Shown here: positions 38,737 to 63,700 of the stretch, in pieces
Position numbering within the stretch: the stretch's first letter is position 1
Layout: the number at the start of each line of letters is the position of its first letter
Assembly: GCA_036399055.1 (NCBI GenBank)
Contig: DASWNX010000016.1
Coordinates: 60,685-124,684, forward strand
DNA length: 64,000 nt
Source of the DNA: Jatrophihabitans sp.
GTDB lineage: Bacteria > Actinomycetota > Actinomycetes > Mycobacteriales > Jatrophihabitantaceae
Direction of reading: 5' to 3'
Notes under the pieces: generated by a model
Told to the model about the DNA's origin: nothing
What the model saw: the letters and a program-made list of their open reading frames with translations, nothing else
Databases searched by the model: none
Position numbers and translations under genes: made by a program

Positions 38737-39099
38737 ATGGGATCGCCGATCATCACCACCGAGCCGGAGCTGCCGCTGGCCGAGCGACTGGCCCAGTTCG
38801 TCCCGGAGCAGGGCAGCTTCGAGTACCAGCATGACGGCGCCGGCAAGACGCACAACTGGCACAAGCACAGCCTGAACGAGACCCTCTTCGTGCTGCAGGG
38901 CGGCATGGAGGTGTTCTGGTTCCAGGACGGCGCGGTGCGGCGGCAGAGCTGCGGCGTCGGCACCAGGATCGCCTTGCCTGCCGAGACGGTGCACGGATCG
39001 ACAGCGGGACCCGCTGGTTGCACCTATATCATCGCCCCTGAGAACGGCGTCACCGCTAAGACCACCTTTCTTCCGATGGAGGAGCATCCCAAGGAATGA
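38737..39099 (+). CDS. Single-domain cupin protein
   Basis: A 120-residue cupin. Motif 1 carries the ligand set WHKHSLNETLFVLQGGMEVFW (two His and a Glu), and motif 2 has LPAETVHGST with the third His. Thus a metal-binding centre is likely. It could be a small dioxygenase, an isomerase or a binding protein. It lies between the N-oxygenase-like gene and the permease in one direction. Confidence 0.82.
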   Translation: MGSPIITTEPELPLAERLAQFVPEQGSFEYQHDGAGKTHNWHKHSLNETLFVLQGGMEVFWFQDGAVRRQSCGVGTRIALPAETVHGSTAGPAGCTYIIAPENGVTAKTTFLPMEEHPKE

Positions 39100-39151
39100 G
39101 TGCGCCACAGGGTGCTGAGTCGCCAGTGCCCGCCCCGGTAGGCCAGCGATC

Positions 39152-40474
39152 ATGACCGCCTCGTCACCGGCCACCGTCCCAGAGAGCACTCCGACGCCCC
39201 AGGGCCGGCTCAGCGCGCATCTGGGCCTGCCCGGCGCCACCGCACTGGCCATCACCGTCGTGGTGGGCAGCGGTGCGCTGGTGCTGCCGGGGATCGCCTA
39301 CCGGCAGGCAGGCCAGGACGCCGTCTTCGCCTGGATGGTCGCCGCGGCCGTCACCGTTCCGCTTCTGATCGTGTTCGCGCGCCTGGGAGCGCGCTACCCC
39401 GGCGCAGGCGGCGTCGCGGGCTTCGTCCACGCGGGCTTCGGCCGAACCGCCGCCGCCGCCGTCGAGGTGCTCCTGCTCGGCACATTCGCCCTGGGCATCC
39501 CCGCCATCGCGCTCACCGGCGGCAACTACGTGGTGCGCGCGCTGGGGCTGTCTGTGCGGCCCGGTCCGGCGGCCGCGGTCCTGGTCATCGGCGCGGGAGT
39601 CGTCGTGGCCATCGGGGTCCGGTTGTCCGGACGGCTGCAGACGGTGCTGGCCTTGATGCTCACCATCGGCCTGTTCTGCGCGGCGTTCCTGGCCCTCCGA
39701 AACCCGGTCACCTCAGTGACCGTGCACGTTCCCACCGACACCGAGCACCTGCTCATCGTCGCCGCCACGGTCGGCACGGTGTTCTTCGCCTTCACCGGCT
39801 GGGAGATGATCTCGTTCACCACCGAGGAATACCGCAATCCGCGACGTGACTTCCCCCGAGTGCTGGTGCTCAGCTTCGTTCTGGTCACCGTCATGTACGT
39901 CCTGCTCGCGATGGGGTTACAGGCCCAGCTGCCCTCGAATCATCCCGGCCTGAGCGGTGCGCCGGTCGGCGAGATGGTCGAGCAGGCAGCCGGCAACGGC
40001 GCGGCTCAGGCCACCACCGTGCTGGGAGTCACGGCGATCGCGGCGAATCTGGTAGGCGCGTTCTGGGGGGTGTCGCGGCTGGTGATGTCCAGTGCCCGAG
40101 CCGGCCTGCTGCCTCGTCCACTGGCCCACGTGCACGCCAAGAGCTCCTCGCCTCGCCGCGCGGTCGCGGCGTGCGTGGCGACCTGTCTGGTGATCATCGG
40201 CCTCCAGACGGCCGGCCTGTTCTCCCTCGACATCATGTTGAGCCTGGCTGGCCGCAATTTCTACGTGGTCTACCTGTTGAGCGCCCTGGCCTACGCGCGC
40301 CTGTTCACCGGTCGGGCGCGGGTTTTCGGCGTCATCGTGGCCGTAGCCCTGGCAACGCTGACTCTCGGCTTCGGGCTCACCTCGTGGGCTTACCTGCTGA
40401 CGCTGCTGGCAGTGGGCGCCCTGGCGCACCGGCAGCGCGGCCGGCGAGCCGCCCAGGCGGGCACGCTCACCTGA
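39152..40474 (+). CDS. APC-superfamily amino acid/amine permease
   Basis: A 440-residue membrane protein with about 12 hydrophobic segments, starting with GLPGATALAITVVVGSGALVLPGIAY, the TM1 pattern of APC carriers, and FAFTGWEMISFTTEEYRNPRRDFPR after TM6. It may import a precursor or export an amino-acid-like product of the neighbouring locus. One TTA codon (39917). The roughly 270 bp after it form the promoter region of the ligase operon. Confidence 0.87.
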   Translation: MTASSPATVPESTPTPQGRLSAHLGLPGATALAITVVVGSGALVLPGIAYRQAGQDAVFAWMVAAAVTVPLLIVFARLGARYPGAGGVAGFVHAGFGRTAAAAVEVLLLGTFALGIPAIALTGGNYVVRALGLSVRPGPAAAVLVIGAGVVVAIGVRLSGRLQTVLALMLTIGLFCAAFLALRNPVTSVTVHVPTDTEHLLIVAATVGTVFFAFTGWEMISFTTEEYRNPRRDFPRVLVLSFVLVTVMYVLLAMGLQAQLPSNHPGLSGAPVGEMVEQAAGNGAAQATTVLGVTAIAANLVGAFWGVSRLVMSSARAGLLPRPLAHVHAKSSSPRRAVAACVATCLVIIGLQTAGLFSLDIMLSLAGRNFYVVYLLSALAYARLFTGRARVFGVIVAVALATLTLGFGLTSWAYLLTLLAVGALAHRQRGRRAAQAGTLT

Positions 40475-40743: not shown

Positions 40744-42138
40744 ATGACCATGGAGCAGCGGGCGGATCCGTCGTGGGCGACCGATGCCGGCTGGGTGGAG
40801 GAGATCCTGCTGGCCGGGCGCGATGACCAGGTCTGCTTTCGCCTGCACGACATCATCGACCGCGCCACGTTGCGCAGGCTGGTGGCCGATCGCCGGGACC
40901 GGCTCAGTGCCGCCGGCCTGCGGCCAGGCGGCGCGGCCGCGTTGCGGCTGCCGCCGTCGATCGCCTACGTGGCCAACCTGCTCGCGGTCTGGCAGCTGGG
41001 CGCCCAGGCGATCCTGCTCGATTACCGGCTCACCGACCACGAGGTGGAGCAGGCCCGGCAACGGCTGTCGCCACAGGTGAGCGTCGCACCGGTGCGGGTG
41101 GCCGGCGGGCTGCGGGTCTTCTTCGACGTCGAGGACGCCATCACCCGGCACGGCGACGAGCCGGCTGGCAGCGAGCACGCGGTCGTGCAGCTGAGCTCGG
41201 GCTCGACCGGGCCGTCCAAGGTGATCGGCCGGACTGCCGCGGACCTGATCGCCGAGGTCCGGCGCTACACCCAGATCGAGGGGGTGGCGTTGCCGGGTGA
41301 GCGGATCATCCTGCTGCCCTCGATGACGCATGTGCTGGGATTGGTCGGCGGCCTGCTGTACGGCCTGCACGCAGGTGTCGAGCTGGTCCCGCCGCAGCGG
41401 CTCACCGGCGACAGCATCCTGGACGCGATCGAGAGCGCCGACAGCCCCGCGACGGTGCTGGGAGTGCCGTTTCACATCACCCTGCTCAACGCCACGGCTG
41501 CGCAGCGGCGGCCCCGGCAGCTGCGCCGGATGATCACCGGCGGCGAGCTGGTGCCAGCTGCGACGGTGGCCGGTTTTCTCGACCGGTACCAGGCGCCGCT
41601 GGGAAACATGTACGGGATGACCGAGGTCGGCGTGATCGGGACAGACCTGGACGGCAGTCACCGGCCGGCGGTTCGTCCCGCGCCAGGCATCACGGTCCGG
41701 GCCCAGGACGGTGAGTTGCAGATCGCGCGGGCCGCCACCCCCTACCTGGGAGAGGCTGTGCCTGGGCGTTGGTCCGAGGGCTGGTTGCGGACTCGGGACG
41801 CGGGCGTCGTGGATCCCGCCACCGGGTTGGTCACCATCCTCGGACGGCTGGACTCCCAGGTCACCATCGGCGGGATGCAGGTCGACCTGGCCGAGGTGGA
41901 GAGCAGCATCGGCGCCCTGCCCGGCGTGGTGGCGGCGGTGGTGCTGTTCGACGAGGCGATCGTCGCCTATCTGCAGCTGGAGCAGCGGCATCGGATCGAA
42001 GACGTCGAAGCGCGGCTGGCCACCCAGCTAGCCCGCTTCAAGCAGCCGCGGGTCTTTCGGGTCTTCGATCAATTCCCCCGGACCGCGACCGGCAAGCTGG
42101 TCCGCGACCCTGCCGCGCTGCGTGCGGGCGCGGCATGA
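40744..42138 (+). CDS. AMP-dependent acyl/aryl-acid ligase
   Basis: A 464-residue ANL-superfamily enzyme. Phosphate loop QLSSGSTGPSKVIGR near 155, aromatic motif NMYGMTEVGVIG, GRLDSQVTIGGMQVDLAEVE, and catalytic Lys in TATGKLVRDP near the C-terminus. It should adenylate a carboxylic acid and load a carrier protein. It is short for the family because the N-terminal subdomain is trimmed. It heads an operon that includes two carrier proteins and hydroxyphenylglycine genes, so an aryl or amino acid substrate is plausible but unproven. Confidence 0.9.
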   Translation: MTMEQRADPSWATDAGWVEEILLAGRDDQVCFRLHDIIDRATLRRLVADRRDRLSAAGLRPGGAAALRLPPSIAYVANLLAVWQLGAQAILLDYRLTDHEVEQARQRLSPQVSVAPVRVAGGLRVFFDVEDAITRHGDEPAGSEHAVVQLSSGSTGPSKVIGRTAADLIAEVRRYTQIEGVALPGERIILLPSMTHVLGLVGGLLYGLHAGVELVPPQRLTGDSILDAIESADSPATVLGVPFHITLLNATAAQRRPRQLRRMITGGELVPAATVAGFLDRYQAPLGNMYGMTEVGVIGTDLDGSHRPAVRPAPGITVRAQDGELQIARAATPYLGEAVPGRWSEGWLRTRDAGVVDPATGLVTILGRLDSQVTIGGMQVDLAEVESSIGALPGVVAAVVLFDEAIVAYLQLEQRHRIEDVEARLATQLARFKQPRVFRVFDQFPRTATGKLVRDPAALRAGAA

Positions 42139-42218
42139 CCGAGGTCGTGCTCGACAGCGTCCGGGCCGGCGCCGGGACCGATCGCGTTCACGGAGAGAAG
42201 GTGTCTCATGCGGGATGA
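42135..42218 (+). CDS. Possible 27-residue coupling micro-ORF
   Basis: Starts at the ATGA overlapping the ligase stop and ends 11 bp into the following carrier-protein gene (start 42208). It may translate through the 69-bp gap and couple the two genes. The encoded sequence has no features. Could be chance. Confidence 0.25.
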   Translation: MTEVVLDSVRAGAGTDRVHGEKVSHAG

Positions 42219-42477
42219 GGTTCGCCGGTTCATCGTCTCCTCATTGGCGGAGATGAACTATGACGTCACAGCCCTCGATGACGCCACGACGCTCGGGCCG
42301 GCTGGCCTGGACCTGGAATCCCTCGCCCTGGCCGATCTGCTGATGCGAGCCGAGGAGCGCTATAGCATCACCTTCACCGAAGCTGAGTGCAAGGAGCTTT
42401 CCCTGATGAACGTCGGCGATTTAACCGAGGCAGTCGTCGATCGGATCGGCCAGACCGCCGGCAGCCGGCAGTCCTGA
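42208..42477 (+). CDS. Acyl/peptidyl carrier protein
   Basis: An 89-residue carrier protein. The phosphopantetheine serine is Ser38 in GLDLESLALADLL. Helix II and III patterns (EERYSITFTEAECKELSLMNVGDLTEAV) are typical. GAGAGAAGG precedes the start. It contains a TTA codon (42421). Its stop and the next ATG share a base (TGATG). It is the probable acceptor for the upstream ligase. Confidence 0.88.
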   Translation: MRDEVRRFIVSSLAEMNYDVTALDDATTLGPAGLDLESLALADLLMRAEERYSITFTEAECKELSLMNVGDLTEAVVDRIGQTAGSRQS

Positions 42478-42719
42478 TGCCTGATCACTCAGCCCTGCAA
42501 AGGGCGGACGTTCTCGCGATGCTGGCCGAGCTCGGAACCCGTGGCCCGGATGCGGTGTGGGAGCGGCTGAGCTCGATGGAGGTCGCCTGGCTGGTGCATC
42601 AGGTCGAGCAGCGCTATGACGTCGAACTGGACCTCGACGACGACGAGCTGACGCGACTACGCACGATCTCGGACGCGGTGAGCCTGCTGGACGAGTCCGT
42701 CCGGGCCAGACGTGGCTGA
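42477..42719 (+). CDS. Second, divergent carrier-protein-like protein
   Basis: An 80-residue ACP-like helical protein. The prosthetic-group motif reads ERLSSMEVAWLVHQVEQRY; Ser33 is in the expected place but the preceding Asp of the usual DSM motif is Ser. Acidic C-terminal half (DLDDDEL). It overlaps the next gene by 8 bp. It could be a specialised carrier or a non-modified partner protein. Confidence 0.75.
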   Translation: MPDHSALQRADVLAMLAELGTRGPDAVWERLSSMEVAWLVHQVEQRYDVELDLDDDELTRLRTISDAVSLLDESVRARRG

Positions 42720-43803
42720 GGCCAGGCCGGTCGGCATCGCGGGCCTGGCGGTGCTCAGCGCGCTCGGCCGTGGCGCCGAGCCGCAGCTGGCCGCCGCCCT
42801 CTCCGGCGTCGCGGCGTTCGGACCGGTGGACCGCTTCGATGTCAGCGGCCGGCGAGTCGGGGTGGCGGCCACCCTGGGGCAGGTCGACACGCTGACCGCC
42901 GAGCTGGCCGAGGTCATCGAAGCCGCCTGCGCCGACGCCGGCCTCAACGCCGCGCAGCGAGCCGGCAGCCTGCTGTTGCTTGCGCTGCATGGATATCCCG
43001 GGGCCACCGCGTGCGCCCTCGACCTGGCCGAGCGCGCCGGACTGGCCGGCGTCGGCCGGGTCTACATCGGCGCCTGCGTGTCTGCCAGCACCGCGGTCGC
43101 CGATGCGGCCGCGATGATCGGCCGAGGGGTGGACCGGGTAGTGGTCGCCGCTGGCTATCTGGTGGAGTCCGATCAGTTTGCCCTGTTTGACTCTGGCCAA
43201 GCGCTGTCGACCGACGGCGCGGTCCGTCCTTTCAGCGCCGGCCGGCAGGGCTCGCTGCTCGGCGACGGAGTCGCGGCGGTGGTGCTCGAATCCGGTGCGG
43301 CCGCCGCCGGTAGAGGCCATCAGCCGGCGGTCGAGCTGGTGGGCTGGGGTCGAGCCGGAGACGCCTACCACCCGTGCCAGCCGGCGCGGGACGGCCGAGG
43401 CCTGGCCCGGGCGATCGAGGCGGCGTTGCGACGGGCTGACGTCTCGGCGCACGCGATCGGTTACGTCAACGCCAACGCCACCGGGACCCTGCTCAGCGAC
43501 ACCGCCGAGGCCGCAGCGCTGCACCGCGCGCTGGGCAGCGCCGCGGCTCGGGTGCCGATCAGCTCGACCAAGGCGGTGCACGGCCATGCGCTGGAGGCCT
43601 CCGGCCTGCTGGAACTGGTGATCACAGTGCTGTCCTTGCAGGCGGGGAAGCTGCCGGTCAACGCCGGTTACCTCGGGCCGGACGACAGCTGTGAGCTCGA
43701 CGTCATCCTGGCTTCACCTCGAACGGTGGCCAGCCCCTACGCGTTGAGCCTGAATTCGGCTTTCGGCGGCGCCAACACCGCCCTCCTGGTGCGTGTCGCA
43801 TGA
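42712..43803 (+). CDS. Beta-ketoacyl synthase with Cys-Asn-His site
   Basis: A 363-residue thiolase-fold condensing enzyme of the FabF/KS-alpha type, shorter than the usual 410-420. Cys122 (IGACVSAST) is the acyl-binding residue. His292 (AVHGHALEASG) matches the second catalytic His. The first is replaced: VNANATGTLLSD has Asn255 where VNAHGTxT is normal. It starts at GTG overlapping the carrier gene and overlaps the next gene by ATGA. Loss of one His may impair decarboxylation and favour acyl transfer or another condensation. It is immediately followed by a half-length KS-like protein. Confidence 0.88.
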   Translation: MAEARPVGIAGLAVLSALGRGAEPQLAAALSGVAAFGPVDRFDVSGRRVGVAATLGQVDTLTAELAEVIEAACADAGLNAAQRAGSLLLLALHGYPGATACALDLAERAGLAGVGRVYIGACVSASTAVADAAAMIGRGVDRVVVAAGYLVESDQFALFDSGQALSTDGAVRPFSAGRQGSLLGDGVAAVVLESGAAAAGRGHQPAVELVGWGRAGDAYHPCQPARDGRGLARAIEAALRRADVSAHAIGYVNANATGTLLSDTAEAAALHRALGSAAARVPISSTKAVHGHALEASGLLELVITVLSLQAGKLPVNAGYLGPDDSCELDVILASPRTVASPYALSLNSAFGGANTALLVRVA

Positions 43804-44468
43804 GCGCTCCTGGCGCGTGCGAGGTCAGGACAGCCAGCCCGCTGGTGGTCCTGAGCGAGTGCCGGTGGCCAAGCGGGCCGGACGAGCAGCCGCCGCCTCC
43901 GCTTCCCGGCTACGTGCTGTCATCGTTCAGCCCGCTGGTCGCAGCGGTCGCTGACGGCTGCCTGACCGAGCACTACGCCCAACCCTCGGCCTCAGCAGCG
44001 TCCCGGCAGCGCACCGCCGTGCTGCTGGTCAGCCGCGGCAATGACGTGGTCAGCGCCGAGCACGTGCGCGACAAGGTCGCCAGCGGCCGGCGGGTCGGCC
44101 CGTTGTTCTTCTTCCAAGCCGCCCCCAACAGCGTGGTGGGCCAGGTCACCGCGCACTGGGGCCTGGGCGGTCCGGTGGTGTGCATCAGCCCGGTCGGCGA
44201 CCCGCTCGCCGACGGGATGGCCGAGGCGGCGCTGCTGCTGGAGGACGGTGACGCCGACGAGGTGCTGCTGATCCTGGTCGAGCAGGGCGGCGATGCCGCG
44301 GACTCGGCTGACCGAGCCCACGCGCTCCTGCTCTCCACGACGGAAATCTCCACGACGGAAATCTCCACGACGGAGGTCGGGCCGGCCAGCCGCGGCTCGA
44401 GTCCGCCTGACCCGCCGGTCGCCGCGGGCGTCGCTGACCATCACCAACCCGAGGGGATCACCCAATGA
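43800..44468 (+). CDS. Half-length ketosynthase-like protein
   Basis: A 222-residue protein resembling the short N-terminal ketosynthase-type partner subunits found next to ketosynthases in aryl polyene loci (RTAVLLVSRGND; LFFFQAAPNSVVGQVTAHWGLGGPVVCIS). It has no active-site Cys. Probably a chain-length-factor-like partner of the preceding KS. Its C-terminal 45 residues contain a STTEI repeat. ATGA overlaps lie at both ends (43800, 44465). Confidence 0.7.
   Translation: MSAPGACEVRTASPLVVLSECRWPSGPDEQPPPPLPGYVLSSFSPLVAAVADGCLTEHYAQPSASAASRQRTAVLLVSRGNDVVSAEHVRDKVASGRRVGPLFFFQAAPNSVVGQVTAHWGLGGPVVCISPVGDPLADGMAEAALLLEDGDADEVLLILVEQGGDAADSADRAHALLLSTTEISTTEISTTEVGPASRGSSPPDPPVAAGVADHHQPEGITQ
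44334..44378. repeat. 15-bp tandem repeat, three copies
   Basis: TCCACGACGGAAATC is repeated three times, the third copy with two changes, giving STTEI-STTEI-STTEV near the end of the half-length ketosynthase-like protein. Confidence 0.9.
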
Positions 44469-45571
44469 CCATCTTCGGAATAGACCACCTGGAGCTGTTC
44501 GTCGGCGACGCTCAGCAGGCGGCTTACTACTTCGGAGCGGCCTTCGGCCTGGAGGTGGCCGGCCGGGGCGGGCCCGAGACCGGGCTGTTCGGCCAGCGGT
44601 CGGTGCTGATGGCGCACGACCAGGTGCAGATAATGCTGACCTCGGGCCTGTACGCCGACCATTCGGCCAACCACTACGTCCACCAGCACGGCGACGGCGT
44701 GGCGGTGGTGGCGATGCGGGTCGATGACGTGGCCGACTGCTTCGCCGAGCTGGTGAGCCGCGGCGCGGAGCCGATGTCGCCGCCGAGGTCATTCTCCGAT
44801 GGCGTCACGAGCGTGGCCTTCGCCGACGTCAGGGGCTTCGGCGACGTGGTGCACCGGCTGGTGCAGCGCGATGGCGAGGGCGACAGCTTTCTGCCGGGCC
44901 CGATCGAGATGCTCGAACGCGAGCCCACCGAGCACCCGATGTTCCACAAGATCGACCACCTGGCGATCTGTGTGCCGGCCGGCCAGCTTCAAGCGACCTC
45001 GCGGTTCTACCAGCAGGTGTACGGCTTCGCCGAGATCTTCACCGAGTACATCGAGGTGGCCGGCCAGGGGATGAACTCGGTGGTCGTGCAGAGCCCGTCC
45101 GGAGGGGTCACCTTCACCCTGATCGAGCCGGACACCGAGCGGCGGGCCGGCCAGATCGATGACTTCCTGCAGTGGCACGCCGGCGCCGGCGTGCAACACG
45201 TGGCTCTGATCACCGACGACATCGTCTCCACGGTGGATCGGCTCGGCAGCCGCGGCGTCCGGTTCCTCAGCACCCCGGCCGCCTACTACCAGAGCCTGGA
45301 GGCCCGGGTCGGCGCCGTGGACGCGCCGATCGCCGAGCTGAGCCGGCTCGGCATCCTGGTCGACCGCGACCATTGGGGTCAGTTGCTGCAGATCTTCACC
45401 GAGTCCACCCATGTCCGGCGCACCTTGTTCATCGAGGTGATCGAGCGGCGCGGCGCCCGCACCTTCGGCAGCGGCAACATCAAAGCGCTGTACGAGGCCA
45501 AGGAACGTGAGATGGTGCACGCGCCGACACCGATGGCTGCCGATCCCGACCCCGAGCCGATGGAAGTGTGA
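44465..45571 (+). CDS. hmaS: 4-hydroxymandelate synthase (HPPD-like dioxygenase)
   Basis: A 368-residue two-domain non-heme iron enzyme. Iron ligands are His165 (HKIDHLAI), His245 (GVQHVALI) and Glu324 (LFIEVIER). The C-terminal stretch TFGSGNIKALYEAKERE is like hydroxymandelate synthases rather than the GFGxGNFKALFEAIE of HPPDs, and the co-located oxidase and aminotransferase complete the 4-hydroxyphenylglycine route. It should turn 4-hydroxyphenylpyruvate into 4-hydroxymandelate. HPPD activity (homogentisate formation) remains an alternative. Confidence 0.85.
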   Translation: MTIFGIDHLELFVGDAQQAAYYFGAAFGLEVAGRGGPETGLFGQRSVLMAHDQVQIMLTSGLYADHSANHYVHQHGDGVAVVAMRVDDVADCFAELVSRGAEPMSPPRSFSDGVTSVAFADVRGFGDVVHRLVQRDGEGDSFLPGPIEMLEREPTEHPMFHKIDHLAICVPAGQLQATSRFYQQVYGFAEIFTEYIEVAGQGMNSVVVQSPSGGVTFTLIEPDTERRAGQIDDFLQWHAGAGVQHVALITDDIVSTVDRLGSRGVRFLSTPAAYYQSLEARVGAVDAPIAELSRLGILVDRDHWGQLLQIFTESTHVRRTLFIEVIERRGARTFGSGNIKALYEAKEREMVHAPTPMAADPDPEPMEV

Positions 45572-46479
45572 TGATGTCCAGCAGCGAGTTCAGCCTCACC
45601 GCCGAGGAAGCGTCGCTCCTGCCTTCTGAGGAGGACGTCCGGTTCTACGCCGAGCACGGCTGGTACCTGTCCGACAAGCTGTTCAGCGACGACGAGATCG
45701 ACGCGCTGGTGGCGGCCAGTGACGATTACTACGACGGTGTCCGCGACCACCGGCTGCCGACCCGGCCGGCGAAGTTGGCCTACTGGCGACCCGAGCACGG
45801 TGAGGTGCAACGGCACAACGACTACGTGCACTACGAAAGCGACGCGATCGCCAAGATCCTGCGCAAGCCGTTGCTGGGCGCGGTCGCGGCCAGGCTCGCG
45901 CAGGCGCCCGAAATCCGGATCTTCCAGTCCACCATGATCTACAAACCACCGGTCGCGGCTGAGCCGACCAATGTGGTTCCCTGGCACTTCGACAAGCATT
46001 ACTGGGCTTCCTCGACCTCGGAGCGGATGCTCACGGCCTTCTTGCCGTTTCACGACTGCCCTCCGGAGATGGGCACCATCACCATGGTCGACGGCAGCCA
46101 TCGGTGGCGCGAGATCGGCAACGACGACAGCACGGTGCGGCACTTCGCCGAGCGAGACAAAGCCCAACTGGACGACATGTTGGCCAAGAACGCCGCCTAC
46201 AACGGCGTCGAGGTGGTCAAGGTCCCGATCACGATTCCCAAGGGGCATATGAGCTTTCACCACTGCCGCACCTACCACGGCAGCGGTCCCAACCTGAGCG
46301 ACCGCCCGCGCCGGGCGATCTCGCTGCATCTGCAGGACGGCGCCAACGCCTACCGGGAATTCCGGCTCTCCAACGGGACGCTGGCCGGTTACAACCACGA
46401 CAGCCTGGTGCGGCGCACCGCCGACGGCCGACCTGACTACGCCGACCCGGCCTACTGCCCGACTCTCTGGCGCGACTAG
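45571..46479 (+). CDS. Phytanoyl-CoA dioxygenase-family Fe(II)/2-oxoglutarate oxygenase
   Basis: A 302-residue cupin-fold oxygenase. The iron triad is His139 and Asp141 (PWHFDKHYW) and His236 (TYHGSGPN). Arg in SDRPRRAISLH should bind 2-oxoglutarate. It likely hydroxylates or desaturates a carrier-bound or small intermediate. ATG 45571 overlaps the hmaS stop; 45574 or GTG 45568 are alternatives. Confidence 0.88.
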   Translation: MMSSSEFSLTAEEASLLPSEEDVRFYAEHGWYLSDKLFSDDEIDALVAASDDYYDGVRDHRLPTRPAKLAYWRPEHGEVQRHNDYVHYESDAIAKILRKPLLGAVAARLAQAPEIRIFQSTMIYKPPVAAEPTNVVPWHFDKHYWASSTSERMLTAFLPFHDCPPEMGTITMVDGSHRWREIGNDDSTVRHFAERDKAQLDDMLAKNAAYNGVEVVKVPITIPKGHMSFHHCRTYHGSGPNLSDRPRRAISLHLQDGANAYREFRLSNGTLAGYNHDSLVRRTADGRPDYADPAYCPTLWRD

Positions 46480-46493
46480 GCCCGGGAAGAAGA

Positions 46494-47435
46494 ATGCCGC
46501 TGGACCCGCAGGCACAGCAATGGCGCGAGCGCCGGATCGCCGATCAGGTGCGCCCGCTGTACACCCTGACCCTTGCCGAGGCGCGGGCTGCCGACCTCGC
46601 TGAGATCCGGGCCGGCGGCGGTGACCCTGAGCCGGTCCACGAGGTCCTGGATCTGCGGCTGCCCGCCAGTGGTGGTGAGCTGCCGCTGCGGCTGTACCGG
46701 CCCTCCGGTCAGGCTGAGCTGCCCGCGCTGGTCTACTTCTTCGGCGGCGGCTGGACTCTGGGCCAGATCGACACCTGCGACGGCATCTGCCGCACGCTGG
46801 CCAACGCCGTCGGGTGCGTGGTGATCGCCGCCGGCTACCGGTTGGCGCCGGAGCACAAGTTTCCGAGCGCGGTGCAGGACTGCTATGACGCCGTCAGCTG
46901 GATCGCCGAGCACGCCGGGGAACTCGGCGTCGATCCGAGCCGACTGGCTGTCGGCGGTGACAGCGCCGGCGGCAACCTGGCCGCGGCCGTCACGCTGCTG
47001 GCCAGGCAGCAGGCCGGCCCGCCGCTGGCCGCGCAACTGCTGGTCTATCCCAACACCTGCTTCGACGCCGACACCCCGTCGATGCGGCAGAACGACGACC
47101 CGAGCATGTTCAACCGGCGCTCGGTGGACTGGTACTGGGAGCACTACCTGCCCTCGGCCGCCGAGGGCAAGAATCCGCTGGCCTCGCCGCTGCTGGCCTC
47201 TGATCACGCCGGGCTGCCGGCCGCGCTGGTGATCACCGCTGAGTACGACCCGCTGCGTGATGAGGCCGAGGAGTACGCCTCCCGGTTGCGGGCGGCCGGC
47301 GTGCCCACCGAGTTGAGCCGTTACGACGGCATGATGCACGGCTTCTTCCTGATGTATCCCCTGTTGAAGAGCGGCCGCCGGGCAGTGGACCAGGCCGTTG
47401 ACTTTCTGCGAGCCCGGTTGGGGCTGAGCCGGTGA
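46494..47435 (+). CDS. HSL-family alpha/beta hydrolase (esterase/lipase type)
   Basis: A 313-residue hydrolase. The nucleophile elbow is GGDSAGGN, with Asp in YDPLRDEAEEY and His in MMHGFF. The oxyanion-hole motif reads YFFGGGW, whereas most members have HGGGW; Phe-Gly replaces the His. It overlaps hmo by ATGA, so it works in the same pathway, perhaps product release or deacylation. Confidence 0.9.
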   Translation: MPLDPQAQQWRERRIADQVRPLYTLTLAEARAADLAEIRAGGGDPEPVHEVLDLRLPASGGELPLRLYRPSGQAELPALVYFFGGGWTLGQIDTCDGICRTLANAVGCVVIAAGYRLAPEHKFPSAVQDCYDAVSWIAEHAGELGVDPSRLAVGGDSAGGNLAAAVTLLARQQAGPPLAAQLLVYPNTCFDADTPSMRQNDDPSMFNRRSVDWYWEHYLPSAAEGKNPLASPLLASDHAGLPAALVITAEYDPLRDEAEEYASRLRAAGVPTELSRYDGMMHGFFLMYPLLKSGRRAVDQAVDFLRARLGLSR

Positions 47436-48523
47436 CCGAGCCGGCGATGGTGTCGCTGCTCGACTTCGAGGCCCGCGCGAAGGCCTTGCTGCCGGCCGAC
47501 GTCTGGGACTTCATCGACGGCGGCAGCGGCTGCGAGATCACCATGCGGGCCAACCGGCAGGCGCTGGACTCGGTCTCGGTCTATCCCCGAGTGCTGGGCG
47601 GCGCCCTGAGCGGCACCGAGGTGAGTCTGCTCGGCGCCTCGATGGCGATGCCGGTCGCGGTGGCGCCGATGGCCTATCAGCGCCTGGTGCACCCGGCTGG
47701 CGAGATCGCGATGGCCGAGGCTGCCTGCCAGGCAGGGATACCGCTGATGCTCAGCGCGCTGAGCAGTTGCGCGGTCGAAGAGGTCGCGCGAACCGGCGCC
47801 ACGATCTGGTTCCAGCTGTACTGGCTGCGCGAACGACCCAGGTTGGAGCAGTTGATCGAGCGAGCGCAGGCTGCCGGCAGCACCGCTCTGGTGGTCACCC
47901 TGGACGTGCCGATCATGGGCCGGCGACTGCGTGATGTCCGGAACCAGTTCGCGTTGCCTGCCGGGGTGACGGCCGCCAACCTCGCCGACGGCCCGGCCAG
48001 CAGAGCGCATCTGAGCAGTGTGGGGGAATCGGCGGTCGCGGCGCACACCAGCGAGTTGTTCGGGTCAGCGCTGACCTGGTCGGACCTGCAATGGTTGCGC
48101 AGTCGATCGAGTTTGCCGCTCGTGGTCAAGGGTATTCTCGATCCACGCGACGCGGTGCGAGCTGTCGAGGTCGGCGCCGACGCGGTTGTGGTGTCCAATC
48201 ACGGTGGTCGCCAGCTTGACGGGGCGCCGGCCAGCGTCATCGCGTTGAGCGCCGTCGTGGCCGAGGTCGGCCAGCAGTGCCCCGTGCTTGTGGACAGCGG
48301 CATCCGCAGCGGGATGGACGTGCTTCGCGCGCTGGCGCTGGGCGCGTCCGGGGTGCTGGTCGGCCGGCCGCTGCTGTGGGCGCTGGCAGCCGGCGGGGCA
48401 GCCGGCGCGGCGCAGGCCTTGTCGCTGCTGGGCGCGGAGTTCCGGGAGTCGCTGATCCTGGCCGGTTGCGCCGATCCGGCGGCCGCTGGACAGCTGCGCA
48501 CCGACCTGAGCAGTCATCGGTGA
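47432..48523 (+). CDS. hmo: 4-hydroxymandelate oxidase (FMN-dependent alpha-hydroxyacid oxidase)
   Basis: A 363-residue flavoenzyme of the glycolate/lactate oxidase family. Catalytic Lys233 (VVKGI), His257 and Arg260 (VSNHGGRQLDG), and FMN-binding AVAPMAYQRLVHP are present. It is expected to oxidise 4-hydroxymandelate to 4-hydroxyphenylglyoxylate. The ATGA overlap at its start and GTGA overlap at its end couple it to its neighbours. Confidence 0.87.
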   Translation: MTEPAMVSLLDFEARAKALLPADVWDFIDGGSGCEITMRANRQALDSVSVYPRVLGGALSGTEVSLLGASMAMPVAVAPMAYQRLVHPAGEIAMAEAACQAGIPLMLSALSSCAVEEVARTGATIWFQLYWLRERPRLEQLIERAQAAGSTALVVTLDVPIMGRRLRDVRNQFALPAGVTAANLADGPASRAHLSSVGESAVAAHTSELFGSALTWSDLQWLRSRSSLPLVVKGILDPRDAVRAVEVGADAVVVSNHGGRQLDGAPASVIALSAVVAEVGQQCPVLVDSGIRSGMDVLRALALGASGVLVGRPLLWALAAGGAAGAAQALSLLGAEFRESLILAGCADPAAAGQLRTDLSSHR

Positions 48524-49872
48524 GCACCCCTGCCGACCGCCCGCGCAGCGGCGCGCTGCGCACCGAGGAGTTGTTCGGCGCGCTGCGCACCGAGGAGTTG
48601 TTCGGCGCGCTGGAGGACCCGGCGCTGAACTCGATGAACTTTCTCAACGAGATCTCTCACCGGTACCCGGATGCGATCTCTCTGGCCGCCGGCCGGCCGG
48701 CCGAGCAGTTCTTCCAGACCGACTCGATCGAGCGCTACCTGCGCAGGTTCTGCCTGCACCTGGAACAAGACCTGGGGTACTCCGAGGAGGAGGTGCGCCG
48801 CACCCTCTTCCAGTACGGGCGCACCAAGGGGATCGTGCACCACCTGATCGCGGCGAACCTGGCGCTGGACGAAGGCGTCTTCATCGACCCCGAGTCGATC
48901 GTGGTCACCGTCGGCTGCCAGGAGGCGATGTACCTGGTGCTGCGGGCGTTGCGCACCGCCGCCTCGGACGTGCTGTTGACGGTGGCCCCGACCTACGTCG
49001 GTCTGACCGGCGCGGCCCGGCTGGTCGAGATGCCGGTGCTGCCGGTCGCCTCCAGCAGGGGAGGGGTCGACCTTGACGACCTCCTGCGCCAGATCCGGCA
49101 GGCCCGAGCCGCGGGCCTGCGTCCCCGTGCCTGCTACGTGATGCCTGACTTCGCCAACCCGTCCGGCGTCAGCATGGACCTCGCCGACCGCCGGCGGCTG
49201 CTGGCCATCGCGGCCGCCGAAGGCATCCTGCTGCTGGAGGACAACCCGTACGGGCTGTTCCCCCACACCGACAGCCAGCGCCAGCCGACCCTCAAATCCC
49301 TCGACGAGCAGCGGACGGTGGTCTACCTCGGCTCGTTCGCCAAGACAGCGATGCCCGGCGCCCGGGTGGGCTACGTGGTCGCCGACCAGTCGGTGGTCGA
49401 TTCCAGCGGCAGGACAGGCCTGCTCGCCGACCAGTTGTCCAAGATCAAGAGCATGTTGACGGTGAACACCTCACCGATCGCCCAGGCTGTCGTGGGCGGC
49501 AAGCTGCTGGAGAACGGCTGCAGCCTGCTGGCGGCAACCGAGGGCGAGCGGGCCGTCTACACCGACAACATGCGCGTGATGGTGGAGGGACTGGCGGCGC
49601 GGTTTCCCGATGTTGAAGGCGGCGTTGGGCACAATGCGCCGACCGGCGGCTTCTTCGTCGTGGTGACGGTGCCGTTTCGGGTCGACGACGCGCTGCTGGA
49701 GCGCTCGGCAGCCGACTACGGCGTGCTGTGGACCTCGATGCACCACTTCTACGAGCCGGGCATGCCGGTGAACGCGATACGGCTCAGCTGCAGCACCGTG
49801 ACCCCGCAGCAGATCGAGACCGGGCTCGACCGGCTGGCGCGGCTGATCAACGACCAGTTGCGCGGCCGCTGA
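48520..49872 (+). CDS. hpgT: Hydroxyphenylglycine aminotransferase
   Basis: A 450-residue PLP-dependent aminotransferase of fold type I. The PLP lysine is Lys275 (YLGSFAKTAMPG), with VTVGCQEAMYLVLRAL and MPDFANPSGVSM upstream. It should aminate 4-hydroxyphenylglyoxylate to 4-hydroxyphenylglycine. The GTG start overlaps hmo. Residues 11-28 contain a 9-residue direct duplication encoded by two exact 27-bp copies. It ends at a bidirectional hairpin. Confidence 0.87.
   Translation: MSTPADRPRSGALRTEELFGALRTEELFGALEDPALNSMNFLNEISHRYPDAISLAAGRPAEQFFQTDSIERYLRRFCLHLEQDLGYSEEEVRRTLFQYGRTKGIVHHLIAANLALDEGVFIDPESIVVTVGCQEAMYLVLRALRTAASDVLLTVAPTYVGLTGAARLVEMPVLPVASSRGGVDLDDLLRQIRQARAAGLRPRACYVMPDFANPSGVSMDLADRRRLLAIAAAEGILLLEDNPYGLFPHTDSQRQPTLKSLDEQRTVVYLGSFAKTAMPGARVGYVVADQSVVDSSGRTGLLADQLSKIKSMLTVNTSPIAQAVVGGKLLENGCSLLAATEGERAVYTDNMRVMVEGLAARFPDVEGGVGHNAPTGGFFVVVTVPFRVDDALLERSAADYGVLWTSMHHFYEPGMPVNAIRLSCSTVTPQQIETGLDRLARLINDQLRGR
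48550..48603. repeat. 27-bp tandem duplication in hpgT
   Basis: Two exact, in-frame 27-bp copies give a doubled GALRTEELF segment at the N-terminus of the aminotransferase. Sequence identity is complete, which suggests a recent event. Confidence 0.92.
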
Positions 49873-49888
49873 GGGTGGGGCTCAGCGG
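49866..49888. terminator. Bidirectional hairpin overlapping two stop codons
   Basis: CCGCTGAG (49866-49873) pairs perfectly with CTCAGCGG (49881-49888) around a 7-nt loop. The stops of hpgT and the convergent coiled-coil gene both lie in its arms. It probably ends both transcripts. Confidence 0.65.
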
Positions 49889-50268
49889 ATCGGGTCGCCG
49901 TCGGTGCGCTCGCTCTGCGCCGTGCGGTCCTCGCGCAGGCGCGGGTCCAGGGTGCTGGCGCGCTCCTGCAGTCGCTGGGCCTCGGCCCGCTCGCGCTCAG
50001 CCTCAGCCATCCGCTGCTGGGCGTCACGCTCGTTGTCACTGGCGCGCAACTCGGCTTCGGCGCGTTCCCGCCGGGCCCGTGCGGCCTGCTCCTCGGCCGC
50101 TGCCTGGGCCGACTCCGCTCGGGCGGAGCGCTCGTTGGCTTCTTCTAGGTGGTGCTGAGCCTCGACCCGCTTGCGCTCGGTGGCCCGGCCTCGCATCCGG
50201 GGCAGCATGACCAGGGCGATCACGGCGAGCACTACGACGATGACGATGACGATGACGAGCGTTTCCAT
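49882..50268 (-). CDS. Membrane-anchored coiled-coil protein
   Basis: A 128-residue protein with an N-terminal hydrophobic helix (TLVIVIVIVVVLAVIALVML) followed by a long Ala/Glu/Arg-rich coiled coil (about 30-105). The body should lie in the cytoplasm as the membrane-anchor is followed by basic residues. Function unknown; similar proteins occur widely in actinobacteria. Confidence 0.75.
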   Translation of the reverse strand: METLVIVIVIVVVLAVIALVMLPRMRGRATERKRVEAQHHLEEANERSARAESAQAAAEEQAARARRERAEAELRASDNERDAQQRMAEAERERAEAQRLQERASTLDPRLREDRTAQSERTDGDPIR

Positions 50269-50381
50269 GACAACGTCCCTTCTTGTTGGAAAAGACGTTA
50301 ACGTCCCGCGCCGTCAGACGCCACCATGAAGGGCCAGAAGCGCTGGCGACCGCCGCCAGGACGGGGTCTAGCCCGCGAGGC

Positions 50382-51158
50382 CTAAGCGGTCGGCAGCACT
50401 CCGGTGCGGCACAGCTGGTCGCTGACGTCGCGGAGCTTGGTGTGGGTGTGCTGGGACGCCTTCACCAGCAGCGCGAACGCCGCGTCCGGGGTCACCCGGT
50501 AGCGCTCCATCAGGATGCCCTTGGCCTGGCCGATGACATCGCGGCTGGACAGCGCGGCCGTCATGTTGCGCCGCCACTCATCGCCGGCCAGCGCGAGGGT
50601 GATGTTGGCGGCGAAGACGGCGGCCATCGCCTGGGACTCCTCGTCGAAAGCGTCAGGGGTTGCCGAAGCCAGGCTCAGCGAGCCGTAGATCCGGTCCTGG
50701 ATCATCAAGGGGGTGCACATCATGCTGCCGACCCCTAAAGGAATGGCCCCGGCGGCGAACTGAGGCCAGCGTGTCTCGGTCGCCAGGTTCGCAACCCACA
50801 CCACGCCCAGCTGCTTGACCGCGTCCAGGCACGGACCTTCACCCACCTCGTTCTGCAGCGCGATGATCTGCGGCGGCAGCGGGCCGGTGACCGCGCAGGC
50901 CTCCAGCCGGCTAGGACCAGTGAGAATGACCAGAGCCGCCAATTCGGCGCCCGGGACGATGTCGATCGCGCCCTGAGTGATCACCGTCAGCGGATCGGCG
51001 CCGTTGTGGACGGTCAGCGCCAACTCGGTGAGCGCTGCTCCGAACCGGGCGGCGCCACTCTTGCTTTCCTTGCTGACCAGCTGCTGTCCGGCTCGGATGA
51101 CGGGCGGAGGCTCCGGGGAGGATTGTGACATCTCTACCTGCTCAAGCAGCTCTGACAT
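50382..51158 (-). CDS. GAF-ANTAR RNA-binding antitermination regulator
   Basis: A 258-residue regulator. GAF domain at about 35-185 (GEGPCLDAVKQLGVVWVANL; GVGSMMCTPLMIQDRIYGSL), ANTAR domain at about 190-250 (DVIGQAKGILMERYRVTPDAAFALLVKASQ). GGGAGGAACT precedes ATG 51158. It is the second such protein in this window and has a more canonical ANTAR motif than the first. Confidence 0.9.
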   Translation of the reverse strand: MSELLEQVEMSQSSPEPPPVIRAGQQLVSKESKSGAARFGAALTELALTVHNGADPLTVITQGAIDIVPGAELAALVILTGPSRLEACAVTGPLPPQIIALQNEVGEGPCLDAVKQLGVVWVANLATETRWPQFAAGAIPLGVGSMMCTPLMIQDRIYGSLSLASATPDAFDEESQAMAAVFAANITLALAGDEWRRNMTAALSSRDVIGQAKGILMERYRVTPDAAFALLVKASQHTHTKLRDVSDQLCRTGVLPTA

Positions 51159-51300
51159 AGTTCCTCCCGCTCTGGACACACCCGATCGACGCGACTGTCC
51201 GTGAAAGCGATGCACATCGACCTGTCACATGTGGCGCCGTCACCGGAGTGTAACCGGAAGCGATTGCGGAAACGAGTGACGCGCTGCGGCCGCCCACCGC

Positions 51301-52176
51301 TCAGGGGCCGGCTTCGATGCGCTCGCGCATGGCCGTCAACGGCCAGGGGCGACCCTCCTGCCAGCCATAGCGCCAGGGATGCACCGCCTCCACCCACCAG
51401 GTGGCCCCGGCGTCGCGATGCTCGGCGTGACGCTCGATCCGTCCGGGGTCATCGCCCTGGGTCTCGCCAGGGACGGCGATGTCATAGGGCGTGTCCGTCC
51501 CGGGCGAGGAGGCCGCGCGTAACGAGGCCATCCGGGCCGCGACAGCCGCGGTGTCGGCGACCTCCCAGCCTCCGTCCAGGCGCATCGGCGCCACCCCGTC
51601 CCAGCGAGCGGCCCGGCGGAACGGACGCGTCCCGGGCCAGGTGCCACCGACCCAGATCGGAATGCGTGGCTGCTGCAGTGGAGGCGGATAGCAGACAGCC
51701 GACCAGTCGGGGCCGGCCGTGCGGTAATGCCGGCCCTGGTGATGGACGGGTTCGCCGGTCCACAGCCGCTCCAACAACTCCAGATGCTCATCGAGCATCT
51801 CGCCGCGGATCACCGCCTCGGTTTGCTCGCCGCAGTAATCCCATTCGAAGGGGCCGCCGCCGATGCCGACCCCCAGCACCAGCCGGCCCTGGCTGAGCCG
51901 GTCAAGAGTGACGGTCTGACGCGCCACCACGATTGGGCGGCGCCGCGGCAACGGCGTGACCATGGTGCCCAGCCGGATGCGCCGGGTGGCGCAGGCGGCC
52001 GCGGTCAGCGCGATCCAGGGGTCGACGACGTCGACCGGGCCGGGAGCGAAGGCGAACAGGTGATCCCAGAGGAAGAAGCCGTCCCAGCCGGCAGCCTCCG
52101 CCGAGGCCGCCCAGTCCGCCACCAGAGCAGCATCCAACCCGGTTCCGAAACAGGGGACCGAGACCGCGTGACGCAT
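51301..52176 (-). CDS. Luciferase-like (LLM) flavin-dependent oxidoreductase
   Basis: A 291-residue TIM-barrel protein of the F420/FMN monooxygenase-like family. Motifs are GWDGFFLWDHLF near 30, IRLGTMVTPLPRRRPIVVARQTVTLDRLSQGRLVLGVGIG, and PIWVGGTWPGTRPFRRAARWDG. The substrate is unknown; a F420 cofactor is plausible in actinobacteria. Confidence 0.9.
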   Translation of the reverse strand: MRHAVSVPCFGTGLDAALVADWAASAEAAGWDGFFLWDHLFAFAPGPVDVVDPWIALTAAACATRRIRLGTMVTPLPRRRPIVVARQTVTLDRLSQGRLVLGVGIGGGPFEWDYCGEQTEAVIRGEMLDEHLELLERLWTGEPVHHQGRHYRTAGPDWSAVCYPPPLQQPRIPIWVGGTWPGTRPFRRAARWDGVAPMRLDGGWEVADTAAVAARMASLRAASSPGTDTPYDIAVPGETQGDDPGRIERHAEHRDAGATWWVEAVHPWRYGWQEGRPWPLTAMRERIEAGP

Positions 52177-60688: not shown

Positions 60689-60774
60689 CTTCTACCAAGG
60701 GCGTTGAGCACGTCTTGCCCCGGTGCGGCGCCGACCTCGATCGCACCACCTCTTATCTGGAGAGCCTCGTATGA
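60685..60774 (+). CDS. 29-residue micro-ORF coupled at both ends
   Basis: A short frame opens at the ATGA that overlaps the thioesterase stop (60685) and closes at the ATGA that overlaps the PKS start (60771). It fills the 82-bp gap exactly, so ribosomes could pass from thioesterase to PKS without a break. The peptide (MTSTKGVEHVLPRCGAD at the start) has one Cys and no known motif. Confidence 0.4.
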   Translation: MTSTKGVEHVLPRCGADLDRTTSYLESLV

Positions 60775-63700
60775 GCAACGACCTTGATCGCCGTCTGGCC
60801 GACACCCCCATCGCCATCGTGGGGCTGTCTGCGCTATTTCCGAAATCGCGTGACCTCCGTGAGTTCTGGAGCAATATCGTGGCCGCGCGTGACTGCATCG
60901 AGGACGTTCCCTCGACTCACTGGAACGTCGATGACTACTACGATCCAGACCCCTCGGCGCAAGACAAGACCTACTGCCGCAGAGGCGGATTCGTCCCGAC
61001 GACGGCGTTCAACCCACTGGAGTTCGGCATGCCGCCGAACACCCTTGAAGTCACCGACATCCTGCAGCTGTTGAGCCTGGTGGTGGCTCGTGAGGTACTG
61101 GCCGACGCCGGCGCGCCGGGTTCCAGCTGGTATGACCCGGCCCGTACCGGCGTCGTGCTCGGGATAACCGGAGCGAATTCGCTTACCCAACCATTGGCCA
61201 CCCGTCTTCAGACACCGGTGCTCAAAGAGGTCATACGAAGCTGTGGCCTGACCGGAGACGACGCCGAAGCGATAGCCGCGAAGTTCACCATGGCGTTCGC
61301 GCCGTGGGAGGAGAACTCCTTTCCCGGCATGCTGGGCAACGTCGTCGCGGGCCGGATCGCCAACCGCTTCGATCTCGGCGGCACGAACTGCACGCTGGAC
61401 GCTGCGTGCGCGAGCTCGCTGGCGGCGACCCGCATGGCCATCGACGAGCTGCTGCTGGGCCGCGCGGACATGATGATCACCGGCGGCTGTGATGCCGAGA
61501 ACACGATCCTGATGTACCTGTGCTTCAGCAAGACCCCGGCATTCTCCAAGACAGGAGTCATCCGTCCGTTCGACGAGCAGGCCGACGGAACTCTGATCGG
61601 GGAGGGCATCGGAATGCTGGCCCTCAAGCGGCTGGCTGACGCCGAACGCGACGGTGACCGGGTCTACGCGGTGATCTCGGGTATGGGCTCATCCAGCGAC
61701 GGCCGGTTCAAGAGCATCTACGCGCCGCGGGCAAGCGGCCAACAGCTCGCCCTGCAGCGGGCATACGCCGACGCCCGGATCAACGCCGGTGATATCGAGC
61801 TGATCGAGGCGCACGGCACCGGTACCGCCGTCGGCGATCACACCGAGCTGACTGCGCTGCGCGAGGTGTATTCCGCAGCCACGTCCGAACGCCAGTTCGC
61901 CGCCATCGGCAGCGTGAAGTCCCAGATCGGTCACACCAAGGCAGCAGCGGGCGCCGCCGGTCTCATCAAGCTGGCGCTGGCCTTGCATTCCAAGGTGCTG
62001 CCGCCCACCCTCAACGTGACGCAGCCGAGCAGCGCCGCAGACTTCGGCTCCTCGGCTTTCTATGTCAATTCGGTCGCCCGGCCCTGGATCCTGGATCCCG
62101 ACCGGCCGCGCCGCCGGGCGGCAGTGTCTGCGTTCGGCTTCGGTGGAACGAACTTTCATTGCGTGCTCGAAGAGCATGACGCCACCGCAGCGCATCGCGA
62201 GCCGGTCGCCACCCTGCATTCCGGGGCCCGGATCCTGAACTGGCACGCCTGCGATGTGCAGTCGCTGCGTGCTTTGCTGACCGGAGGCGCCGAGCCCAGC
62301 GATGAGCCGATAGCCGCCGATCACGCCCGGATCGTGTTCACCGCCCACGACCGCGATGGCGTTGAGCAGGCCAGGACACTGGCATTGAAGGCGTTGGACG
62401 GGCCTGGGTCCTCCTGGGCACTACCCAGTGGCGTCCACTTCCGCGAGCAGGCAATGCCCGCTACCAAGATCGGTGCGCTGTTCGCCGGCCAGGGTAGCCA
62501 GTACGTCGACATGGCACGCACCGCGGTGCTGTCGTATCCGCCGATGCGCTCTGCGCTGGACAAGGCCAACAGCTATGCCCTGGCGCCCACCACCCTGGCT
62601 AGGGTGATCTTCCCGCCGCCGCCGTTCTCAGATGCAGAACGCCAGTCCGCGGAGGAGACTCTGCGGCTGACCCAGCATGCCCAGCCCGCCATCGGCGCGA
62701 TCAGCGTCGCCCACTTCACCGTGCTGCGCGAGCTGGGCCTGCCGGTTGACGGTTACCTCGGCCATAGCTTCGGTGAGCTCACCGCGCTGTGGGCGGCCGG
62801 CTCGCTGACCGACCACGACTTCGCTATGCTCGCCCGGGCCCGGGGAGCGGCCATGGCCACCCCGCCCGGTGCGGGCTCAGACCCTGGCGCGATGGCTGCT
62901 GTCAACGCTGGCCGCGATCAGGTGACGGCCTTGATCGCCGGCCTGCACCAGGTCTGGATCTGCAACGACAACGCCCCCGACCAAATCGTGGTCGGTGGGG
63001 CGACGCAGGCCATCGAGCAACTGCTTACCCTTGCCGGCGAGCACGGTCTTCGCGCTCAGCGACTGCCGGTCTCGGCCGCCTTTCACACGCCATTCGTCTC
63101 TCATGCCGTCACCCACTTCGGCTCCTCTGTCGCGGCAGTCGACCTACGGGCGCCGTCCGGACCGGTGTACTCGACAACGCAAGGCCAGCGCTATGGCCGC
63201 GACATCGCGGCCAATCGTCAGTTGATCACCGGCCAGCTGACCACGGCCGTGGAGTTCCGTAGCCAGGTCGAGGCGATGTACGACGACGGGTTCGGCATTT
63301 TCGTCGAATTCGGTCCGAAGAACGTGCTCGCCACGCTGGTCGCTCGGTGCCTACCTGGACGGGATGTGCTCGTCGTGTCGATGGATCAGGGACCGCGCCG
63401 GGACTCCGAGCTGAGCATGAAGCAGGCCATCGCCGCGCTGGTGGCCGCTGGTGTCGAGCTGCGTGACGTCAACCGGTGGCAAACCGCTGCCCCGGTCGAG
63501 CAAGCCGCCAAGGGCATGGTGATCCAACTCGACGGTGTCAACTACGTCAGTGACAAGCGTCGTGCCGATTACCAAGAGGCGCTGGCCAACGGGTACCGCG
63601 TTGTCAACTCGGCGCCCATCGCCGCGCCTGTGGTCGCGGTTGTCGTGCCGGTCGCGGCTGCGGTGCTCACTCCGGTCGCGGCTGCGGTGCTCACTCCGGT

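Follow-up and report, generated by a model that had tools for sequence, protein, structure and literature searches.

What does a set of genes for making 4-hydroxyphenylglycine (Hpg) do beside a ligase, two carrier proteins and a ketosynthase (KS) pair? The question is raised by a 64,000-nucleotide stretch of a Jatrophihabitans sp. genome (the window; contig C16, positions 60685-124684, in an assembly of 4.53 Mb and 46 contigs, here G000). Genes for HmaS, Hmo and HpgT are the Hpg supply genes of glycopeptide antibiotics and of the calcium-dependent antibiotic, and the original prediction held that here they belong to a self-contained pathway free of nonribosomal peptide synthetases (NRPSs). We find that the cluster is real and conserved; its general kind is known, and its His-deficient KS pair is distinctive. 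The reading that we favour, at just short of an even chance, is that a single biosynthetic pathway is divided between two sub-clusters, this locus and one on contig C26. The ten genes, all open frames on the + strand at 40744-49872, are as follows.

40744..42138, + strand: AMP-forming ligase (lig), 464 aa; PF00501/PF13193, with His196 where an alpha-amino Asp is expected
42208..42477, + strand: acyl carrier protein ACP1, 89 aa; DLES Ser motif
42477..42719, + strand: acyl carrier protein ACP2, 80 aa; SSME Ser motif
42712..43803, + strand: ketosynthase KS1, 363 aa; PF02801/PF00109, Cys in ACVSAS, HGTGT His replaced by Asn, GH motif retained
43800..44468, + strand: half-KS, a CYF-like partner (CYF below), 222 aa; PF13723 at 30.8 bits (cut-off 25), fold like that of a chain length factor (CLF)
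44465..45571, + strand: predicted hydroxymandelate synthase HmaS, 368 aa; TIGR01263 at 361 bits, NIKALY motif
45568..46479, + strand: PhyH-type Fe/2-oxoglutarate oxygenase, 303 aa; PhyH at 78 bits
46494..47435, + strand: LipP1-type alpha/beta esterase, 313 aa; LipP1 at 379.5 bits (cut-off 350)
47432..48523, + strand: 4-hydroxymandelate oxidase Hmo, 363 aa; FMN_dh at 410 bits
48520..49872, + strand: HpgT-like aminotransferase, 450 aa; PF00155 at 102.5 bits

The linked genes are of the kinds originally described, with overlaps of 1-8 bases at seven of the nine junctions. Two starts were corrected: for ACP2 we prefer the ATG at 42477, and for the aminotransferase 48520 (450 aa) over the open reading frame start at 48277. 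In comparisons with two genomes of the same genus, dN/dS was 0.13-0.39 in 19 of 20 cases, the remaining one being ACP1 in genome G008, where no ACP1 match was found. These values suggest, at the level of coding sequence, that the remaining genes of this reduced locus are under selection. Because the gene order also recurs in other genomes, the locus is not a chance assemblage. The RNA fold 3' of the last gene was unremarkable (z -1.07).

The original assignment of an Hpg route is supported. HmaS scored 281 bits to 2r5v (PCZA361.1), which we take to be the A. orientalis HmaS, and 282 bits to 3zgj, compared with 222 bits to the 4-hydroxyphenylpyruvate dioxygenase (HPPD) 1t47. Its C-terminal motif, NIKALY, is that of 2r5v, whereas NFKALF is found in 1t47 and in the other full-length HPPD-like gene of G000 (C18, 38% identical). 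In S. coelicolor Hms, Ile355 and Tyr359 line the tunnel (PMC3720870, in the excerpt available), and the Ile and Tyr are retained in 75 of the 77 HmaS family members, with one Val and one gap. One point stands against the assignment, namely that HmaS exceeds the NCBIfam model named 4HPPD (TIGR01263, 361 bits, cut-off 277). Despite this, the difference between the 2r5v and 1t47 scores, together with the Ile/Tyr motif, leads us to reject an HPPD identity and homogentisate as the product, and HmaS is, judged by its sequence, of the hydroxymandelate-synthase type. Hmo matched 4-hydroxymandelate oxidase 5zzp at 353.8 bits; the sole higher score was to a two-copy lactate oxidase chain, at 176 bits per copy. 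The aminotransferase is of class I/II and adjoins Hmo in relatives, and there is no solved HpgT among its structure matches. Among genomes picked for holding the cassette, 8 of 8 had an Hmo match (E up to 1e-40) and 9 of 9 an HpgT match; in the Micromonospora-type genome G066, both genes stand at the distal end of the cluster. A second HpgT-like gene of G000 (C2, 46% identical) lies ~11 kb from a condensation domain. The locus thus resembles known Hpg supply genes in its HmaS and Hmo, which match solved enzymes, and in the adjoining aminotransferase; it differs in that these genes sit inside a KS cluster with PhyH and an esterase, and no Hpg-type NRPS module was identified.

The KS pair is where the locus departs most from known systems. 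KS1 matched the AmcF model at 145.9 bits (cut-off 325; 1.6e-42), and the best NCBIfam match of the half-KS was AmcG (31.6 bits, cut-off 80; 1.2e-7); on these profile scores the pair is distantly related to AmcF-AmcG of cispentacin. With the ligase AmcH and the carrier AmcB, AmcF-AmcG makes a cyclopentenone from 2-oxoglutarate and malonyl-ACP, according to the excerpt available of PMC10698177. The cispentacin/coronafacate-type system described there likewise encodes together an AMP ligase, an ACP, a KS and a short motif-poor KS partner; here, however, the scores fall far below the model cut-offs, the ligase is distant, KS1 lacks one catalytic His and the genes are linked to an Hpg route. The AlphaFold model of the half-KS (mean pLDDT 83, pTM 0.72) is KS/CLF-like, and among solved structures it best matches ApeC, the CLF of the aryl polyene system (6qsp; E 1e-9, TM 0.56 by query, rmsd 4.0). 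Unlike in the ApeO-ApeC system, there is no ketoreductase or dehydratase among the ten genes, and KS1 is His-deficient.

The active site of KS1 is Cys-Asn-His, the Asn standing where FabF-type enzymes carry the HGTGT His, so that the enzyme is indeed as unusual as the original prediction supposed. Of 74 KS1 genes identified from their gene neighbourhood, Cys-Asn-His occurs in 62, Cys-His-Gln in 10 and Cys-His-His in 2 (L043 and L103); with two duplicate records removed, the counts are 60, 10 and 2 of 72. One of the two catalytic histidines is therefore lost in 72 of the 74. KS2, a second ketosynthase of the cluster family, is Cys-His-His in 68 of 68 cases and in the C26 copy, as are two KSs adjoining genuine AmcG; the KS of relative L184 also retains both His. 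The excerpt available of PMC4661987 describes the HGTGT His as required for decarboxylative condensation and terms its loss KS0, which is non-elongating. The loss of a catalytic His thus predicts that KS1 is a non-elongating, acyl-transferring KS, and makes the proposed condensation doubtful. As in KS0, the HGTGT His is replaced and the Cys retained, but KS0 is a domain of modular polyketide synthases (PKSs), whereas KS1 is free-standing and has a CLF-like partner. We tentatively propose a new class of type II KS-CLF-like heterodimer without decarboxylation chemistry (through either of two His losses). It would act on tyrosine-derived 2-hydroxy/2-oxo aryl acids, either shuttling the acyl group between carriers or coupling it non-decarboxylatively; the cluster family to which it belongs, large, actinobacterial and uncharacterised, would in this genus be divided between two loci.

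The next-best match of the ligase in the same genome reaches 33% over partial coverage. Alignment with adenylation (A) domains of the same genome shows that His196 replaces the Asp of the FDxx motif, and the same Asp is absent from the second ligase of the family (lig2) and from AmcH-like ligases. As this Asp holds the alpha-amino group, the substrate is expected to be an acid without one. Loading of Hpg, one of the two substrates originally put forward, probably does not occur; the other, the glyoxylate precursor, or else hydroxymandelate, would fit better, Hpg itself being unlikely. The carriers ACP1 and ACP2 gave weak NCBIfam matches and no Pfam match at 0.001, and their carrier Ser is retained in 72 of 72 and 87 of 87 family members, respectively. 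In L184, ACP2 is fused with KS1 and lig is fused behind a DAHP-synthase-like domain (read by eye). That stretch (L184:626-14074) also has, by eye, PabAB-, AurF- and UbiD-like genes, which places the cassette in another aromatic pathway.

The gene order also occurs outside this genome. Relatives of the half-KS were found in 13 of 101 relative genomes. The best 80 of 243 relatives from the ligase alignment, which we took as named loci, carry the genus titles Micromonospora (36), Kribbella (14), Saccharothrix (6), Salinispora (5), Catellatospora (5), Actinophytocola (4) and others (10); HmaS and PhyH occur together in 68, CYF in 60 and all three in 58. The window, 10 of 12 loci from the genomes studied (two, L045 and L046, were left out, as neither has the ligase-KS-CYF-HmaS cassette) and the named loci make up a tally of 91. 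In it we counted ligase in 90, ACP2 in 87, PhyH in 78, HmaS in 77, lig2 in 76, ACP1 in 72, CYF in 71, E1 alpha in 69, E1 beta in 62, DUF3050 in 59, esterase in 21, HpgT in 19 and Hmo in 17. Many loci end at contig ends, L036/L048 and L040/L086 were taken as duplicate records, and the genes of relatives and of C26 come from a simple gene caller that missed or shortened some small genes. The usual order is lig-ACP1-ACP2-KS-CYF-lig2-KS2-HmaS-PhyH-DUF3050-E1a-E1b. In Micromonospora and Salinispora loci (L039, L060, L087 and others), a block with a biotin carboxylase-like gene and a KS-KS pair precedes the cluster. No account of the ligase-ACP-ACP-KS-CYF-HmaS-PhyH order was found among the titles and abstract openings that the literature searches listed, with most subscription papers, preprints and MIBiG outside the scope. 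The locus belongs to a widespread actinobacterial cluster family of which we found no description.

Compared with this family, the window is reduced. Genome G002, of the same genus, carries between the same flanks a contiguous and more complete cluster, with which the window is colinear except for three gaps:

gap 1, between CYF and HmaS: 2.9 kb, holding lig2 and KS2 in G002
gap 2, between PhyH and the esterase: 6.9 kb
gap 3, after the aminotransferase: 13.3 kb, holding E1, a carrier protein, a KASIII-like protein, condensation (C)-like proteins, a glycosyltransferase and ABC genes
38737..40474, + strand: left flank, a cupin-like protein (120 aa) and a permease-like membrane protein (440 aa), named by reading only; common to G002
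49882..52122, - strand: right flank, a small protein, a GAF-ANTAR regulator and a luciferase-like oxidoreductase; common to G002 and G008

G008 (L036/L048) has the same reduced order as the window, with the lig2-KS2 and E1 blocks absent and no detectable ACP1, so an assembly fault is an improbable cause of the reduction. A seryl-tRNA-synthetase-like protein of G002 (L182:10996-11913) adjoins a phosphopantetheinyl transferase near a carrier protein and may be an amino acid:carrier ligase.

The nearest lig2 (58% to the Micromonospora copy) and E1 alpha (68%) in G000 both lie on C26. They are part of a run that comprises an ACP1 counterpart, KS2, E1 alpha/beta, a C-like protein, a P450, an O-methyltransferase and a KASIII-like protein, and continues with a carrier protein, a glycosyltransferase, a deacetylase, a thioesterase, ABC genes, lig2, MbtH and three NRPS proteins. 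Among nine genomes of the genus, a C26-type lig2 occurs only in G000, G002 and G008, the same three that have the window locus, and in G002 and G008 it likewise stands beside NRPS genes. If genomes were independent, which they are not, such a match would have a chance of 1 in 84. In Saccharothrix and Labedaea (L072, L111, L113 and L126), both halves occur together with an NRPS-like protein. It is from this co-occurrence, the joined halves and the fuller G002 cluster that we derive the split-pathway reading. The resident lig2, KS2 and E1 may have become redundant through the presence of the C26-type sub-cluster.

Several observations were made beside this comparison. The NRPS-like proteins of the four Saccharothrix and Labedaea loci adjoin HpgT. 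The C26 lig2 (L139:542-2167) has a degenerate P-loop, SSGTTRTPAA, where the Micromonospora copy has TSGTTGVPKA. A 1934-aa NRPS protein of C26 (L138:14278 to L139:82) has, by eye, a region like the N-type of lantibiotic dehydratases after C-A-T. We also considered whether the right ends of C16 and C26 form one locus and ruled this out, as the window ends in another PKS and C26 in a glycosyltransferase. The former, at window positions 60770-64000, reads by eye as the start of a KS-AT-ACP PKS that runs off the contig end, preceded by a thioesterase and an amine oxidase-like gene.

Under the split-pathway reading, HmaS would convert 4-hydroxyphenylpyruvate to 4-hydroxymandelate, Hmo would oxidise this to 4-hydroxyphenylglyoxylate and HpgT would turn the glyoxylate into Hpg. 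In parallel, lig would load a non-amino aryl acid (hydroxymandelate or the glyoxylate) onto ACP2, and KS1-CYF would take the acyl group on its Cys and pass it on, probably to ACP1, with no decarboxylation of malonate. The Cys-His-His KS2 of the second locus could elongate the acyl group on ACP1, PhyH would hydroxylate and the esterase would take off an acyl group. Hpg and the acyl unit would then join the second locus (three NRPS proteins, carrier, C-like protein, E1 alpha/beta, glycosyltransferase and ABC exporter), from which an aryl glycosylated peptide-polyketide hybrid is the predicted product leaving the cell. The scheme is weakest at the ligase substrate, the site where Hpg is used and the service of C26 to this locus.

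A number of findings weigh against a split pathway. Relatedness is not corrected for in the three-of-nine co-occurrence, and of the six genomes scored negative, two are incomplete (63% and 85%). C16 and C26 are different contigs, and any joint regulation is hypothetical. The C26 KS2 and lig2 are only 59% and 53% identical to the G002 copies, too low for them to be a block cut from the window, an origin that we therefore ruled out. G002 has a C26-type cluster in addition to its fuller window-type cluster, so there could be two pathways. The 70 kb read around the G066 cluster gave no condensation domain, and that genome has a second Hmo-HpgT pair (C1:1347603-1349903) among large NRPS frames at ~1.30-1.37 Mb, suggesting a non-NRPS use for the pair within the cluster. 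Around the G002 cluster, condensation-like domains occur only in short frames (462-683 aa), with a 2283-aa protein matching KSs further out. The Hpg code was not seen in the subset of A domains read by eye (15 of them from one listing), and the Saccharothrix and Labedaea NRPS-like proteins have degraded C and A motifs with the carrier Ser intact.

The G066 and G002 facts favour an NRPS-free use of the cluster in relatives, and together with the missing Hpg-type A code they are what speaks for a self-contained pathway in which Hpg or the glyoxylate is loaded by lig onto a carrier for condensation by the KS. We consider this unlikely: lig has no Asp for the amino group, KS1 has lost a His needed for decarboxylation, the NRPS sub-cluster co-occurs in all three genus genomes with the locus, and the cassette is also found with no HmaS in the stretch read (L043, L127 and L184). 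The absence of an NRPS was correctly noted for the locus itself, as a genome-wide search (23 matches) gave no condensation domain in the window; the only one on C16, at 39032-40375, lies ~61 kb before the cluster, outside the window. Given the C26 sub-cluster, however, the further step to a self-contained pathway was not borne out: 'no NRPS' holds for the locus, perhaps not for the pathway, and an NRPS-free reading is not safe for this organism. The NRPS protein at C16:39032 is one of three (with C46:72015 and C43:3816) with frames of ~1.1 kaa and a common DMSQG A4 motif.

Less likely again is an AmcFG-like route, in which lig would load a 2-oxo diacid (e.g. 2-oxoglutarate) and KS-CYF would add one malonyl unit and cyclise it to a cyclopentenone, later joined to Hpg. 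The model matches of both KS proteins point this way, as does the grouping of ligase, ACP, KS and CYF as in the 'minimal type' clusters of PMC10698177 (excerpt). Against it, both matches stay far under the curated cut-offs, lig is only 33% (over 152 aa) and 27% (over 426 aa) identical to the ligases beside two genuine AmcG, and the KSs adjoining those AmcG keep the Cys-His-His triad that KS1 lacks. Least probable in our view is that the locus does no more than supply Hpg to an NRPS as an operon, with the ligase-KS-CYF part a decaying relic. The missing lig2, KS2 and E1 and the failure to match ACP1 in G008 would agree with decay, but the dN/dS of lig, KS and CYF is 0.14-0.31, the KS Cys is retained and two species share the reduced form.

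If the split-pathway reading is right, it points to a large actinobacterial cluster family, in Micromonospora, Kribbella, Salinispora, Saccharothrix and others, with no product found in our searches. It would also show that a split pathway can appear NRPS-free when one locus is read alone, and would give a KS-CLF-like pair in which a role in transfer, as opposed to elongation, can be tested.

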